From: Thalassovita gelatinovora
Lineage (GTDB): Bacteria; Pseudomonadota; Alphaproteobacteria; Rhodobacterales; Rhodobacteraceae
Assembly: GCF_001458355.1 (NCBI RefSeq)
Contig: NZ_CYSA01000026.1
Coordinates: 310,001 to 374,000, forward strand
DNA: 64,000 nucleotides
Direction of reading: 5' to 3'
Below are positions 38,760-47,247 of this stretch, piece after piece. The notes under the pieces are model-generated. The model was not told where the DNA came from and made no database searches. It worked only from the letters and a program-made list of their open reading frames with translations. Both the position numbers and the translations under genes were made by a program. Every line of letters starts with the position of its first letter. Position 1 is the first letter of the stretch.

Positions 38760-39257
38760 ATGACCATTTACAACGCGATGCAAAACGGTGACCGCACCGG
38801 CTTCATGACCAGCTACCTTGACGCGCTGGCGTTGGTGGAACGGTTGCACCGGCTGTTGCTGGATGTGATCAAGGATGAATTCGAACGCACCGGCGTGTTG
38901 GACATCAACGCGGTGCAGGCGCTTTTGTTGTTCAATATCGGCGATAACGAAGTGACGGCGGGCGAACTGAAATCGCGCGGCTATTACCAAGGCAGCAATG
39001 TCAGCTATAACCTGAAAAAACTGGTCGAAATGGGCTATATGCACCATCAGCGCTGCGAAATCGATCGCCGCTCGGTGCGGGTGCGGCTGACCCCGAAAGG
39101 GCGGCGCATCCGCGATATGGTGGCCGAACTGTTCGCCCGCCATGCCGAAGGCATGCAAGACAAGGGCGTGCTGGGCCCGGACGGTGTCACCGAAATTTCC
39201 AGTTCGCTGCGCCGGGTCGAACGCTACTGGACCGATCAAATCCGCTATATCTACTGA
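38760..39257 (+). CDS. MarR-family winged-helix regulator (LdtR-like)
   Basis: A 165-residue MarR-type regulator. The winged helix spans about residues 45-120 (DINAVQALLLFNIGDNEVTAG, then NVSYNLKKLVEMGYMHHQ, wing DRRSVRVRLTPKGRRI), flanked by dimerisation helices. The N-terminal YNAMQNGDRTGFMTSYLDAL resembles alphaproteobacterial LdtR, which controls an L,D-transpeptidase and osmotic tolerance; that link is family knowledge and not shown here. The ATG at 38760 follows GGACGGAG. The 3' end overlaps the convergent DUF1194 gene by seven bases. Confidence 0.85.
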   Translation: MTIYNAMQNGDRTGFMTSYLDALALVERLHRLLLDVIKDEFERTGVLDINAVQALLLFNIGDNEVTAGELKSRGYYQGSNVSYNLKKLVEMGYMHHQRCEIDRRSVRVRLTPKGRRIRDMVAELFARHAEGMQDKGVLGPDGVTEISSSLRRVERYWTDQIRYIY

Positions 39258-40006
39258 TGCAGCCTCGCCGGGCGCTGCTGCGTCCCGCCCGGCAGATCGG
39301 CACGGGTCAGAACCAGCCCCTGCAATTCGCGGATCAGCTTGCGCGCCATCGCGTCTTCGTAATCGTCGAACCCCGCCGCAGCTTCGGTAAAGGCTCCGGG
39401 GCCACGGATCACGTAAGCTTGAAAATAACCCTCCAGCGCGGCCTGACCGGCCGCGCCGCGCGTCGCTTCTACTGGCCCTTCGGGGGCAATCACCAACCCG
39501 TTCACCGTCACATCCGACAATTCGGCGCTGTCGCGGATCACATGCGGCAATGGCCCGGTATTCGAGGGCCCGTCACCGGACAGGTCCAGCACCTTGCGGG
39601 TGCAATGGCCGCGCGTTTTCAATTCGGCCGCGCCCGCCCGCATCGCCGACCCCAGGGCGGTCGACGGATCGCCGGACCCGCGCAGGGTGGCGCGCAACTG
39701 TCCGGCAATGGCGGCAATCGCCGCCGCGTCCGCCACCGGTTGCCACGGCTGCACCACCCGCTGATCGTTTGGCCCGCTCCATTCGAACACCATCAATTCG
39801 ACCGGGTCGCCGGGCAGCGCCAACAGCGCCGCCTGCACCTCGGGCCGCAACAACGCGGCGGCCAACCCGTCCATCTGCAACCGGTATTCGCTGCCATCGA
39901 CCGATCCCGACACGTCCAGCCCCAACGCCAACGCGACCCGGCACGCCGCCGCCGCCCCCGGCAATCCGCTTAGCGCCAGCATCACAACAGCCATCACCGC
40001 CTTCAT
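39251..40006 (-). CDS. DUF1194 secreted VWA-like protein (copy A)
   Basis: A 251-residue exported protein. A signal peptide (VMAVVMLALSGLPGAAA) is followed by a von Willebrand A-like fold with the metal-site motif DVSGSV, then VLDLSGDGPSNTG and VNGLVIAP. DUF1194 proteins are common in alphaproteobacteria and lack a known function. It overlaps copy B by ATGA and is the last gene of an apparent five-gene run behind a Slam/lipoprotein pair. The intact MIDAS motif suggests metal-dependent protein binding in the periplasm. Confidence 0.85.
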   Translation of the reverse strand: MKAVMAVVMLALSGLPGAAAACRVALALGLDVSGSVDGSEYRLQMDGLAAALLRPEVQAALLALPGDPVELMVFEWSGPNDQRVVQPWQPVADAAAIAAIAGQLRATLRGSGDPSTALGSAMRAGAAELKTRGHCTRKVLDLSGDGPSNTGPLPHVIRDSAELSDVTVNGLVIAPEGPVEATRGAAGQAALEGYFQAYVIRGPGAFTEAAAGFDDYEDAMARKLIRELQGLVLTRADLPGGTQQRPARLHQ

Positions 40007-40710
40007 TGCGCCGGCTCCAGCATCCCGGTTATCATCGGTGCCAATTCCCGTTCCAGCTTGCGCCGCAGCGCGGTTTCGTAATCTTCATACCCGGCGGCAA
40101 TTTGCAAAAACGCCCCCGGCCCGTGCAACACATGATCGCGGAAATAGGGCACAATCGGGGTGTCATGGCTTTCGCCCGGCACCTCGATCACCAGACCATT
40201 CACCACCACCCCGGCAAAGGGAAAGGCACTATAGGCCTGTTGCGGGCCAAAGCCTTCGTTGTTTTCACCGTCGCCGCTGATGTCGAGCGTGCGAAACAGA
40301 CACTCCGGCCCGCGCTGCAACAACGTCGCCCCATATCCCAGCGCATGCCCCAACGCGGTGGGAAAATCCCGCGTGCTGCGGTTCGATCGGCCCAGCCGTT
40401 CAGCGACAGCAAACAGATCGGCAGGGGTCGAAATCAACACCCAGTCCAGCAGCAGTTTCTGATTGCTTCGACCGCTCCATTCATAAACGGCCAGCGCCAC
40501 CGGCGCGGGGGCGGCGAAAAACGCCGTCTCCACCTCGGGCGCCAGCAGCGCTGCAGCCATGCCGCGCCGCTGCAACCCGTCCTCGGCTTTGGACACCGAC
40601 GATGACACATCCAAAGCCAGCACCAGCGCAAGGCGACAGTCCGCAGCGCGGGCTGGCGGCGCGATCATTCCCGCCGTCAGAACCGCCAGAACGACCGCCG
40701 CCCGCCGCAT
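40003..40710 (-). CDS. DUF1194 secreted VWA-like protein (copy B)
   Basis: A 235-residue paralogue of the downstream gene. It has a signal peptide (AVVLAVLTAGMIAPPARAA), the MIDAS-like DVSSSV, LDISGDGENNEG and VNGLVIEVPG. I chose the ATG at 40710, which overlaps the gloA stop as TGATG and gives a clean signal peptide; a start 11 codons upstream lies inside gloA. Both copies keep the DxSxS motif. The tandem copies probably arose by duplication and may form a pair. Confidence 0.85.
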   Translation of the reverse strand: MRRAAVVLAVLTAGMIAPPARAADCRLALVLALDVSSSVSKAEDGLQRRGMAAALLAPEVETAFFAAPAPVALAVYEWSGRSNQKLLLDWVLISTPADLFAVAERLGRSNRSTRDFPTALGHALGYGATLLQRGPECLFRTLDISGDGENNEGFGPQQAYSAFPFAGVVVNGLVIEVPGESHDTPIVPYFRDHVLHGPGAFLQIAAGYEDYETALRRKLERELAPMITGMLEPAQ

Positions 40711-41138
40711 CACCAGTGTCCGGTATTTTCCATACTGGCCCAAGGCTCCGCCGGGGCCAGCGCATCACCGATCTGCAGCAATTCAACCGAAATATTGTCG
40801 GGCGACCGGACAAAGGCCATATTGCCATCACGCGGCGGCCGGTTGATCACCACGCCGTTATCCATCAGGTGCTGGCACATGTCATAGATGTTTTCGACGC
40901 CATAGGCCAAATGTCCGAAATGGCGGCTGTCTGACGGCAATCCGTCATCGCCGTCCCAGTTATAAGTCAGCTCGACCGGGCATTCTTCCTGCCCTTCGGC
41001 GGCCAGGTAAACCAGGCTGAAGCGGCCTGCCTCGCTGTCATAGCGCTTGATTTCCTTCAGCCCCAGCAATTCATAAAAAGCCATGCTTTTTTCCAGGTCC
41101 TTCACCCGGACCATGGTGTGCAGATACTTGATTTTCAT
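40710..41138 (-). CDS. gloA: Lactoylglutathione lyase (glyoxalase I)
   Basis: Isomerises the methylglyoxal-glutathione hemithioacetal to S-lactoylglutathione, detoxifying methylglyoxal. The 142-residue VOC-fold protein starts KYLHTMVRVKDLEKSMAFYE and has VELTYNWDG, HFGHLAYGVENIYDMCQHL and SPDNISVELLQIG. It carries the metal ligands His, Glu, His, Glu in their usual places. It starts 21 bases after the Slam gene stop and overlaps DUF1194 copy B by one base, so it may be co-transcribed with both. Confidence 0.93.
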   Translation of the reverse strand: MKIKYLHTMVRVKDLEKSMAFYELLGLKEIKRYDSEAGRFSLVYLAAEGQEECPVELTYNWDGDDGLPSDSRHFGHLAYGVENIYDMCQHLMDNGVVINRPPRDGNMAFVRSPDNISVELLQIGDALAPAEPWASMENTGHW

Positions 41139-43678: not shown

Positions 43679-44584
43679 ATGCCCGTCACCCCCGAACAGC
43701 AGGCCGAAATCGACGCGTTGCGCGCCAACCCCCGCCCGACCTTGCGGGCGGTGTCCGACGGGATGGAGGCGCATCTTTACACCATCAACCCGGTGCTCGA
43801 TCATGGGTTCGTCCGGGTCATCGATTACATGGGGGACGATGCCGCGATCTGTCAGGCCGCCCGGGTCAGCTATGGCAAGGGCACCAAATCGGTGCAGAAC
43901 GACGAGGGCCTGATCCGCTACCTGATGCGGCACTGGCATTCGACCCCGTTCGAAATGTGCGAATTGAAATTGCACGTCAAATTGCCGGTCTTCGTGGCGC
44001 GGCAATGGATTCGTCACCGCACCGCCAACGTCAACGAATACTCCGCCCGCTATTCGATCCTTGACCGCGAATTCTATATCCCCTCGGCCGATCAGCTGGC
44101 CGCCCAGTCCAGCATCAACAATCAGGGCCGGGGCGAAGCCCTGACCGGGGCCGAGGCCGAAAGGGTGCTCGACATCCTCAAATCCGACGCCGCGCGCTGC
44201 TATGACCATTATCAGGACATGATTTCCGACGACGGTCAGCAGGGTCTGGCCCGCGAACTGGCCCGGATGAACCTGCCCGCCAATATCTATACCCAATGGT
44301 ATTGGAAGGTCGACCTGCACAACCTGCTGCATTTCCTGCGCCTGCGCGCCGACGCCCATGCCCAATACGAAATCCGCGTCTATGCCGACGAGATTTGCAA
44401 ACTGGTCGCCGACTGGGTGCCGTTTGCCTATAAGGCGTTCGAAGATTATCGCATGGGTGGTGAAACGCTTAGCGCTGCCGCCCTTGATTGTGTCCGCCGG
44501 ATGTTGAAAGGTGAGGAGGTCACCCAGGAGACTTCCGGCATGTCCGCGCGGGAGTGGCGGGAGTTGCAAGAGGTTTTGGGGTGA
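43679..44584 (+). CDS. thyX: Flavin-dependent thymidylate synthase
   Basis: Makes dTMP from dUMP with FAD, NADPH and methylene-tetrahydrofolate. The 301-residue product has the ThyX motif [15 protein letters not shown] and the flavin/dUMP contacts [27 protein letters not shown] precedes the ATG at 43679. The stop TGA overlaps the GTG start of the low-GC ATPase gene (GTGA), so the two could be read in one transcript although they differ sharply in base composition. Confidence 0.96.
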
Positions 44585-45846
44585 AGCATTTGAAAAAGGC
44601 CGTAGTACACGCGAAAAATTTTAGAGGCTTTAGTGAGCTTTCAATTGATTTGACAGCTATAAATTTTGTTGTTGGAGATAATAGTTCTGGAAAAACCTCT
44701 ATTCTGCACCTAATCAATGCGGTTCTTACATCCGAGCTGTCGGGTGTCCCGAAATTAGATACCGATCTTTCAGTCGGCCGTTTTGACTATTTTTCGCCAT
44801 ATTTTTCTAATGATGATGTGACACTCGGATTTGAAATTGAAGATGATTCAGGCAAGTATATAAAAATTATTACACTGAGGCAAAAAAGCGTGGGAGAAGT
44901 GCCTCAGGTGGAAAAGTGTACATATGCGACTGAAAAACTGCAGATATCACTGAGAAGATTCGGAAAAAAATTAAAGGCAAAAAAGGTTTACAAAGATAAT
45001 TCTTGTGATTGGGCTGATGTCTGTTCTCTTCATGAATCTACGACGGGATTCAGTTTGCTGAAGGATGAGGAAAATGTACCCCCCCCAAATCATCTTTTTG
45101 CGGTAACTCAAGTTCTTGAAAGAAGAAAGGAAGCTCCCGATGCTGATCTGATTAAGCGTCTCATGTTTGAGGATTTATACGGTGTGAGGCACATCGCGCC
45201 GGTGCGCGGAATGCCGGAAAAGTTTTATAACTTTGATAGAAAATACAACGCAAGTGGTAAGCACTTCGCGACGATGTGGCACGATATTAAAAAGAATTAT
45301 GAAAAAGATCTGAGAAAAATATTTCGAAGCTTTGGCCGCTCTGCTTCATTGTTCGATGATCTGGAAATATCTAGGGTGGCCAAGGGATTGCCAGATTCAC
45401 CTTTGATTGTTCGGGTTAGTAAAAATGGACAGGAGTTTTTTCTGAACCAAGTTGGTGTCGGCGTTTCACAAGTTGTTCCAATCTTGGTGGAAATGGTCTT
45501 CGAAGCACACGAAGAGGATGGTAACTACCTTTTGTTTCAGCAGCCAGAGTTGCATTTGCATCCCGTCGCACAGGCGGCTCTAGGTGATCTGTTTTTTGAA
45601 ATGTCAAGTAAGCTGCGCGGTATGACCATAGAGACGCATAGCAACTTTTTTATTGATAGGTTTAGGCTAGCGATAAGAAATTCGGAAAATGGTGAGGCGC
45701 GAAGGGCTAACATACTTTATTGCTCAAACTCGGAGAGTGGAAATAAATGTGAGGTAATTGAAATAAGTAATGATGGTCGGTTGGTTGATCCACCTTATGA
45801 GTATTTTAAATTCTTTCTGTCGGAGCTGGAGGCTACGACCTTCTGA
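44581..45846 (+). CDS. AAA/ABC-type ATPase (DUF3696-like) of a putative two-gene defence cassette
   Basis: A 421-residue SMC/OLD-type ATPase. Walker A is GDNSSGKTS (residues 32-40) after an N-terminal [11 protein letters not shown]; the signature-like block is [12 protein letters not shown]; the Walker B region is [12 protein letters not shown] (317-328), and the switch is [12 protein letters not shown]. In relatives the Walker B reads EQPE or EEPE; here the first acid is Gln320, with Glu323 retained. The C-terminus ([20 protein letters not shown]) resembles DUF3696. No TOPRIM or nuclease domain is fused. The start is the GTG overlapping the thyX stop; TTG 44590 is an alternative. The gene is AT-rich: 18 G/C in the 60 bases from 44641. 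It overlaps the next gene as TGATG. Acting with it against phage is inference from layout. Confidence 0.82.
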
Positions 45847-46295
45847 TGGCAAGGGTTTTCTTAGATGTAAACTTATTTGGCCAAGAATGGTTCGGGCCAA
45901 TAAAGGTCGAACTTCAAGAATGTAGTAGTGTTCGTTTTTCATATTCTAGAGTTCAAAAATTGCTTGATGAGCATCAGAAAAATGTGAAGGCGAAAACATT
46001 CTATCAAATTATGTCGCAGCTTAACCGTGTTGATGTTGCTGATTCTAATGCTGTCCAAAAAAGAATGGACAAGTTGCAGGAAAACAAAAAATGGAAAAAT
46101 GAAAAGGATTGTGATGATCCTCATATTTTTGCGATTGTTTATGAAATGCCAACGCCATATGTCTTTTCCTCAGATACAGATATGGCAAATTGCCGAAGAT
46201 GTATTCAAAATTCTGTGGATTCTAAATTTTGCCAATTTATCGTTATTGCTAGCGATGCTATTTATAGAAAGCACAGGCAAAAAGTTTTGAAATAG
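45846..46295 (+). CDS. PIN-like putative ribonuclease, partner of the ATPase
   Basis: A 149-residue protein with a PIN-domain-like layout: Asp7 in VFLDVNLF, acids in the middle (Asp41, Glu42), Asp90/Asp91 in CDDPHIFAIVYE, and Asp110/Asp112 in FSSDTDMANC, then a strand FCQFIVIAS. These acids match the metal-binding spacing of PIN nucleases, but overall similarity to a named family is not obvious. It begins by one-base overlap with the ATPase gene (TGATG) and shares its AT-rich composition, so the pair moves and works together. The C-terminus is Lys-rich (KHRQKVLK). Alternatively it is a non-catalytic PIN-fold adaptor. Confidence 0.7.
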   Translation: MARVFLDVNLFGQEWFGPIKVELQECSSVRFSYSRVQKLLDEHQKNVKAKTFYQIMSQLNRVDVADSNAVQKRMDKLQENKKWKNEKDCDDPHIFAIVYEMPTPYVFSSDTDMANCRRCIQNSVDSKFCQFIVIASDAIYRKHRQKVLK

Positions 46296-46457
46296 CAAGC
46301 CGTAGGGTGCGTACTCGCACGCACCATTGATCCCGCCGCCCTACATGTTGTGTGACCTTACACCCCTCCATCCACAGCAAGCCGTAGGGTGCGTGCTCGC
46401 ACGCACCACTCTTCCCGCTGTCCGATCTCCTGCGTGACATCACGCCCTCACCATCCA
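46294..46457. repeat. Two tandem imperfect copies of an 82-base palindromic unit
   Basis: The 33-base core GCAAGCCGTAGGGTGCGT..CTCGCACGCACCA occurs at 46294-46326 and 46376-46408 with one mismatch. The downstream parts (TCCCGC...GTGAC...CCC) also align, giving two units of about 82 bases. Each core folds as GGTGCGTG/CACGCACC. The first unit begins inside the stop codon of the PIN-like gene. It resembles dispersed palindromic elements of alphaproteobacteria. Confidence 0.75.
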
Positions 46458-46935
46458 AACTCCCCCTTTCCGACCAAACGCGAAGGGTAACCCCCGGCCG
46501 CGGGTGGGGGTGAAGTCCCCGCCGTCGTGCTGCAAGCGCGCCTCCGGCGTGACGGGGGCGGTCGGGGGCTGCCCGGCCTTCAGCCGGGCGGGTGCTCTGA
46601 TTTGAGCGTGGCGCTTCTGGCGCCGTTTTGGGATGGCCGTAGGCCGGGCTTCAGCCCGGCAAATCCCCGATCTCCGAAATCCCGCACGGGCTTATGGCCG
46701 CGATTGGCGGGCTGAAGCCCGCCCTACATCGCTGATCCCGGGCGGCCCGCAATGCCGGTCCGATTTCGATCCCGGCGCAAATCCGGCCGCGCCGCGCGGG
46801 TTAACAACCCGTTACCGGCATCTGTAGCGTTTGGCGCTGCAAATTGTACAAATCGCATCAAAAAACATTGCGCCAGATCAATCCGGACCTAGCTGATTAA
46901 GCGTAGCCTGAAGAAAACCAAGAAGGAGGCACCGG
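46458..46935. repeat. Gene-free zone with three CGGGCT-type hairpins
   Basis: No gene is supported here. Palindromes are GCCCGGC-CTTCA-GCCGGGC near 46571-46589, GCCGGGCT-TC-AGCCCGGC near 46643-46660 and GGCGGGCT-GA-AGCCCGCC at 46707-46724. The second lies in a GTAGGCCGGGCTTC context and the third is its inverted form (CCGCCCTAC side). These look like copies of one dispersed hairpin repeat. The last 100 bases are less GC-rich and probably carry the hpf promoter. Confidence 0.6.
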
Positions 46936-47247
46936 ATGCAAATCCAGATCAATACCGACCATAATATTCAGGGCGACGACCGGGTGGCCGAAGTCTGCGA
47001 ACAGATCGTCACCGACGCTTTGGCCCCCATATCTAGCCGTCTGACCCGGGTCGAGGTCCATATCAAGGATATTCGCGGTCCCAAGGGCGGTGAAGATATC
47101 CGCGCCACGGTCGAAGCCCGCCCCGAGGGTCTGCGCCCCTATGCCGCCCATCACGATGCGACCGACATCAAGGTGGCGCTGCGGCAGGCCGCGAAGAAGC
47201 TCAAGCAGCGCCTTGATGCCGAATTCGGCAAGCTGGCAAGTCACTGA
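46936..47247 (+). CDS. hpf: HPF/RaiA family ribosome-associated protein
   Basis: A 103-residue protein of the short hibernation-promoting-factor family, which binds the 30S decoding centre and slows translation. It starts MQIQINTDHNIQGDD and has SRLTRVEVHIKDIRGPKGG, IRATVEARPEG and DIKVALRQAAKKLKQRLD, the beta-alpha-beta layout of the family. It is shorter than long HPF and lacks the dimerising C-terminal domain. AGGAGG lies upstream of the ATG. It is transcribed alone, followed by a hairpin at 47262-47285. Confidence 0.87.
   Translation: MQIQINTDHNIQGDDRVAEVCEQIVTDALAPISSRLTRVEVHIKDIRGPKGGEDIRATVEARPEGLRPYAAHHDATDIKVALRQAAKKLKQRLDAEFGKLASH

Follow-up and report, generated by a model that had tools for sequence, protein, structure and literature searches.

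We found that an OLD/Rad50-type ABC ATPase gene and a gene for a predicted PIN-domain nuclease form a conserved pair, located here at the 3' end of thyX, and we consider it likely that the pair is a two-gene anti-phage module acting by abortive infection. In the window (the whole 64,000-nucleotide stretch analysed here), the ATPase gene occupies positions 44581..45846 on the forward strand and encodes 421 amino acid residues, with a GTG start and a TGA stop at 45844-45846. The PIN gene (45846..46295, forward strand; protein P0002, 149 residues) begins with ATG at 45846, so that base 45846 is common to both genes, and its stop codon ends at 46295. These two frames and their one-base overlap had been proposed from a sequence-only reading and were confirmed on the sequence, and the ATPase motifs quoted there, IETHSNF among them, were found as written. 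Its counts of 18 and 34 G/C per 60 bases were matched by hand count. The GC of the whole genes is 0.412 in the ATPase gene and 0.349 in the PIN gene, compared with 0.607 in thyX and 0.603 in the window minus the module. The same reading had fused the ATPase gene to the thyX stop; with the GTG start the two genes do overlap as GTGA (44581-44584), but a second candidate start, TTG, lies at 44590, and the overlap thus depends on the start used.

The gene upstream, thyX (43679..44584, forward strand), is a host gene for flavin-dependent thymidylate synthase, as indicated by the Pfam family Thy1 (2.9e-56) and by relatives. In six same-genus relatives with both sides aligned, the region from thyX to an HPF/RaiA-like gene (46936..47247, forward strand; named by eye), which is the right-hand anchor of the empty site, measures 205-920 bp instead of the 2.28 kb of the window. 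The similarity of these relatives to the window ends at 44574-44586 and resumes at 46868-46908, leaving the segment 44587..46867 without a counterpart. On this comparison, the module is shown to be inserted at the thyX 3' end in this genome as a lineage-specific AT-rich insertion. Downstream of the pair, the repeat search located two tandem copies of a 72-nt repeat on the forward strand (46294..46447), whose palindromic core of 20 nt has no further exact copy in the genome, and an inverted repeat at 46639-46727. A comparable arrangement was observed in two Pseudorhodobacter loci (L061 and L062), in which thyX (79-81% identical) lies directly 5' of an ATPase-PIN pair of their own, with the same GTGA overlap in L062. 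Their ATPases are 38 and 41% identical to that of the window and are sisters in the tree, which did not recover a clade uniting them with the window, although such a clade was not rejected either (AU p 0.37).

The small protein is a PIN domain and a predicted nuclease, probably an RNA-cutting one. Its model, built from a 68-row alignment, has a pLDDT of 92.8 and a pTM of 0.86. Foldseek alone gave no match at E < 0.001 for this model; its best match (E 0.008) was Nmd4, and the first five were Nmd4, Nob1, an untitled archaeal protein and two VapC, followed by mixed entries. VIA-align gave Z scores of 8-9.5, and the named entries at Z of at least 8 are VapC toxins and Nmd4, with 115-132 residues aligned; three untitled archaeal entries in rows 1, 2 and 4 we take to be PIN domains as well, and among the rows of Z < 7 there are Rossmann-like proteins without relation to PIN, for example TrpRS. 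Among 87 homologues, Asp7 is conserved in 86, Glu42 in 85, Asp91 in 87, His93 in 86 and Asp110 in 78, with Glu in eight more at the last position. All four acidic positions hold Asp or Glu in 84 of the 87, the exceptions being L102, L123 and L011. The predicted structure and these acids support the PIN-like character claimed earlier, and the active site itself has been redrawn: of the acids then proposed (Asp7, Asp90/91 and Asp110/112), Asp7, Asp91 and Asp110 are conserved, whereas position 90 is Asp or Asn in most homologues, position 112 is mostly Arg, and Glu42 had been missed. The family libraries (Pfam, PADLOC and others) give P0002 no name, and TIGR00305, a PIN toxin family, matches it at 0.031, which is a lead only. 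Pfam PIN models were above the cut-off in none of the partners scanned, and three partners (L011, L077 and L117), out of eight of this type that were examined, gave sub-threshold matches. PIN domains are usually RNases, and such a partner would by analogy fit the scheme of WonAB, Septu and PARIS.

The ATPase matches the Pfam family AAA_15 (5.9e-23), and its best PADLOC matches are NsnB (6.6e-33), HEC-03B (1e-26), AriA (5.2e-24) and PDC-M55A (1.1e-23). Its model, from a 53-row alignment (pLDDT 86.7, pTM 0.89), is closest to SMC/Rad50 heads, the retron/Septu PtuA and GajA, with Z scores of 17.8-20.4 across the 50 matches listed. The P-loop with Lys38 in Walker A, the Walker B glutamate Glu323 and the H-loop histidine of the ABC/Rad50 head are all in place, and the Walker A, QPE.HLHP and ETHS residues are invariant across the 53-row alignment. 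The C-terminal tail is short, and no TOPRIM domain was matched in the 421 residues by Pfam at E up to 1. The residue following ETHS is Asn in the window, instead of the Asp found in 79 of 80 rows holding [IV]ETHS (the 80 motif-bearing rows of an 87-row file, duplicates included), so the activity of the window ATPase could be altered.

The two genes recur together. We scanned the genome contigs of 84,980 species with an alignment of three ATPases, which matched 519 stretches; 428 of these were relatives, and the analysis covered the best 80 of the 428. A PIN-like gene adjoins the ATPase at 79 of these best 80 genome relatives (of 428), and the partner of the remaining one, L093, is masked by N. 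The pair is also present on five viral contigs (L037, L038, L136, L138 and L140). A PIN-like ORF stands beside the ATPase at all 82 distinct loci readable at this step, 79 genomic and three viral, with L037 and L038 read separately; relative to the ATPase stop, the first start codon of this ORF is found at -52 to +22 bases. A first, strict PIN pattern was passed by 78 of 87 rows. Of the nine rows that failed, six were judged PIN-like by eye or with a looser pattern; the other three are the masked L093 and two rows outside the family, L141 and L142. The last two match the ATPase N-terminus only and were dropped, together with L093 and with L137 and L139, which come from the same contigs as L037 and L038. 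The relatives are the top 80 by similarity, and their detection required a short exact motif, hence the linkage is demonstrated within this ATPase clade only. The sequence-only reading had named as evidence against itself a lack of the PIN-like partner beside most homologues of the ATPase; within this clade the partner is present, whereas more distant members of the ATPase superfamily are paired with different genes.

The pair was found at 86 loci besides the window, among them L009 and L011, which the family search contributed and of which L011 has a cut ATPase. The phylum search yielded L231 as a further pair. In the contig scan, the record titles name Pseudomonadota, Bacteroidota, Spirochaetota, Chloroflexota, Planctomycetota, Acidobacteriota and Nitrospirota, besides others. 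Close to home, the distribution is patchy. By sequence, P0002 was found in one of 295 family genomes, the window's own, and the ATPase in one of two same-genus genomes. The ATPase search of the 295 family genomes gave 29 places in 24 genomes: one is the window, L009 and L011 carry this PIN type, and the others have a different kind of partner, are truncated at a contig end or align with one end of the ATPase only. The PIN profile matched four of 398 phylum genomes, strongly in the window's genome and L231, both with the ATPase; around the weaker matches L233 and L234, no ATPase motif was present in the 1.5-kb flanks. Alignments were needed for these surveys, as single-protein scans for relatives gave no match in genome or viral contigs. 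In addition, tblastn of P0002 gave no match in plasmids or phages, nor did the partner of L077 in plasmids or that of L038 in phages.

The partner type follows the ATPase phylogeny. In a tree of 35 ATPases, the 18 PIN-paired ATPases fall on one side of a 100/100 branch and the six HEC-03-like ones on a 100/99 branch. Four changes, the minimum, suffice to place the five partner types on this tree (shuffled mean 12.3; four rows belong to no group). The partners of L013 and L014 (HEC-03A) and of L018 (NsnC) were labelled by PADLOC, those of L005, L007, L012 and L016 (HEC-03A-like) by alignment, and L033, the phospholipase-D-like and the 'VDS' partners by eye. This agreement marks the module as a distinct lineage and not a copy of HEC-03 or Menshen. 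HEC-03 combines an ATPase from this superfamily with a PIN-like gene downstream that has a VIDTN start, and a distant likeness was observed between the two PIN profiles (hhalign probability 58.6, E 9.6e-5). Nevertheless, we rejected membership in HEC-03 on the partner gene: P0002 has no HEC-03A match at E up to 1, none of the partners of seven relatives (L009, L011, L056, L065, L077, L117 and L131) matches HEC-03A in PADLOC. The ATPases themselves occupy separate branches; the window ATPase does match HEC-03B, though less well than NsnB, and the tree places it outside the HEC-03 branch.

Several observations concern other partner types of related ATPases. An RNA-ligase-family gene follows the HEC-03-like ATPase-PIN pairs on the plasmids L005 (4277-5457) and L007 (4837-6075), which suggests an RNA cut-and-repair module. 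A related ATPase group (L006, L015, L017 and L020) has a partner of about 300-325 residues with an HDRF/HARY motif, phospholipase-D-like by eye; the L006 partner, the sole one of this group scanned, matched nothing in PADLOC and nothing clearly in Pfam. In a further ATPase group (L003 4264-5271 and L010 1989-3080), the partner has 335-363 residues, starts near IIVDSSL/ILVDTAL and has no Pfam or PADLOC match.

No named system fits the pair, in agreement with the earlier reading. P0002 matches no model of PADLOC 2.0.0 at E up to 1, and six of the seven relatives' partners have no PADLOC match, the other having a weak, unrelated one (RTasSLATT, 0.0011). Although NsnB of Menshen (NsnABC) is the best PADLOC match of the window ATPase, Menshen was rejected: P0002 has no NsnC match, and the gene upstream is thyX instead of NsnA, the DUF262 gene that the available text of PMC10952713 includes in that system. 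PARIS, Septu and Gabija/OLD share the ATPase superfamily and the ATPase-plus-nuclease layout, but their nuclease is TOPRIM or HNH and that of the window is PIN. Accordingly, PARIS was rejected for want of an AriB match, Septu for want of a PtuB or HNH match, and the Gabija/OLD nuclease by the missing C-terminal TOPRIM, the protein ending at 421 residues. Unlike in VapBC, a 421-residue ATPase, not a small DNA-binding antitoxin, precedes the PIN gene. A survey published in 2026 (PMC12839542) describes 594 taxa in which OLD-ABC ATPases have HNH, PD-(D/E)XK or PIN nucleases as partners in the surroundings of BREX and related systems, and it adds that such couplings had been noted earlier. These OLD-ABC and PIN pairs comprise the same two kinds of protein as the window pair, a likeness drawn from one sentence of the survey that does not imply identity of family (PMC12839542). 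The pairing as such is therefore already in print in that one survey, as far as its available text goes, and our literature search found no paper naming or testing the pair itself.

The closest experimental model is WonAB, a two-gene operon of the WASA-1 prophage of V. cholerae, in which, as the accessible part of PMC12137116 describes, an OLD-ABC ATPase with a C-terminal extension is paired with a separate nuclease. Both genes are required there, and the toxicity of the nuclease needs ATPase activity; infection is aborted with translation stopped and the DNA intact, and rRNA or tRNA was suggested as the target (same part of PMC12137116). The window pair shares the two-gene layout of an OLD-ABC ATPase and a separate nuclease with this description, but WonB has a PD-(D/E)xK fold and the nuclease of the window is a PIN. 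Septu cuts tRNA-Tyr (PMC13096335), and PARIS cuts tRNA (stated in PMC12839542). We propose that a dimer of the window ATPase would hold the PIN subunit, sense an infection cue and license the PIN protein by ATP turnover. The PIN protein would then cut host RNA (tRNA or rRNA) and stop translation, as was proposed for WonAB and as PARIS and Septu are reported to do with other nucleases. Transcription of the module would probably start with thyX and run on into it. We base the case for defence on the family, the partner, the mobility and the patchiness: a conserved pair, a PIN fold with its site, the ATPase fold, the patchy distribution, the AT-rich insertion, the defence-like cargo that some relatives carry behind thyX (described below), and the WonAB model. 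On these grounds the earlier suggestion of an ATPase-plus-nuclease candidate defence system is supported, and we infer the defence role itself.

Three other explanations were weighed against this one. A toxin-antitoxin or addiction module, with the PIN protein as toxin and the ATPase as its neutraliser and with no phage sensing, would agree with a pair without a recurring third gene, with the short overlap or spacing between the genes and with the resemblance of the PIN model to VapC toxins. We regard it as unlikely, because, in contrast to small DNA-binding antitoxins, the ATPase retains the residues for ATP hydrolysis, and the superfamily to which it belongs is one of immune ATPases; in WonAB, moreover, experiment argued against simple neutralisation, according to the text available of PMC12137116. 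That the pair serves housekeeping or stress RNA processing, such as tRNA or rRNA trimming, and not immunity seems quite improbable given its patchy distribution, its occurrence on viral contigs and its AT-rich insertion, even though HARP RNase P, Nob1 and Nmd4 are also among the proteins that the PIN model resembles. Least probable is a decayed, inactive copy, to which ETHSN in place of ETHSD and promoter-like sites near shuffle level (6 vs 3.9, sd 1.9) might point, but both frames are intact, nothing else is missing from the two active sites, and the viral relatives L037 and L136 have the identical one-base overlap. The terminator scan was likewise near shuffle level.

We surveyed up to 6 kb 3' of thyX at 60 loci, the closest of the 234 of 295 family genomes with thyX and nearly all from different genera; they are 60 of the 64 top thyX places, with G019, G246, G272 and G274 left out. 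A loose rule placed an ORF at the thyX end in 31 of the 60 loci, 10 of which were dropped by eye, so that a cargo ORF sits on the thyX stop in 21 of 60, starting at -3 in eight. The mean GC of the cargo is 0.463 vs 0.634 further on, and the cargo is lower in 20 of the 21. Under a fixed rule, which was set after seeing the loci (an ORF of at least 120 residues, a start at about -30 to +60 and a GC at least 0.08 below the locus), 20 of 58 thyX ends qualify, two loci being too short, vs 0 of 117 control gene ends. The controls are six other conserved genes from the same loci, in genomes picked by thyX similarity and with names given by eye: hpf 0/4, csp 0/20, arsC 0/31, p48521 0/20, doxX 0/21 and duf692 0/21. 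L188 and L226 were accepted by eye but fail the fixed rule, and L177 was dropped by eye yet passes. The cargo mostly differs between genomes, and the 3' end of thyX has the look of a landing site, or hotspot, for cargo.

Ten cargo proteins were compared with Pfam: PIN_12/PIN_8 was matched in L048 (a further thyX locus, outside the 60), AbiJ_NTD4 in L212, DUF4357 in L222 and, below threshold, DUF4407 in L228, and six of the 10 had no match at E up to 0.01. In PADLOC at 1e-5, 31 cargo ORFs, picked by eye from 53 and scanned with no ordinary-gene control, matched PDC-S14 (2), PDC-S57 (2), PDC-S32, PDC-S33, PDC-S34, PDC-S35, a TIR effector and DUF3780 (1 each), counts in which members may coincide; the remaining ORFs of the 31 gave no match at this threshold. 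Some of the cargo may not be defence. A broader reading, which we put at slightly under an even chance, is that the pair is a separate, unnamed immune system across bacterial phyla and viruses and that the thyX 3' end is a dedicated immune-cargo site in the window's family, probably Rhodobacteraceae, where cargo would be read through, often translationally coupled to thyX, without a promoter of its own. The top matches of our literature search on the site made no mention of thyX. The thyX stop in this family is a place to look, which may include unknown defence genes. ATPase-plus-nuclease immune systems are emerging one by one with TOPRIM, HNH or PD-(D/E)xK nucleases, and the clade described here, with PIN at every readable locus from Alphaproteobacteria to Bacteroidota, Chloroflexota and Planctomycetota, offers a defined, testable family for detection tools.

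All-against-all BLAST of 608 flanking ORFs showed no third conserved gene at a fixed position. Among 129 neighbouring genes of the relatives (of the 144 nearest, the longest being left out), 150 PADLOC models match at 1e-10, none in more than three genes, and the 25 models listed include type I RM, PtuA, AbiLi, AriA and NERD+UvrD. These matches, counted as models and not genes and with no control set, neither show nor exclude defence islands, and the Pfam families of the same neighbours are mostly housekeeping among the 25 of 177 listed. Four loci (L056, L060, L063 and L109) have integrase-like genes, recognised by eye, in their vicinity. Elsewhere in the window, on the reverse strand at 39251-40743, two adjoining similar genes encode proteins of about 250 residues that carry an LDVS(G/S)SV motif and are von-Willebrand-like by eye.
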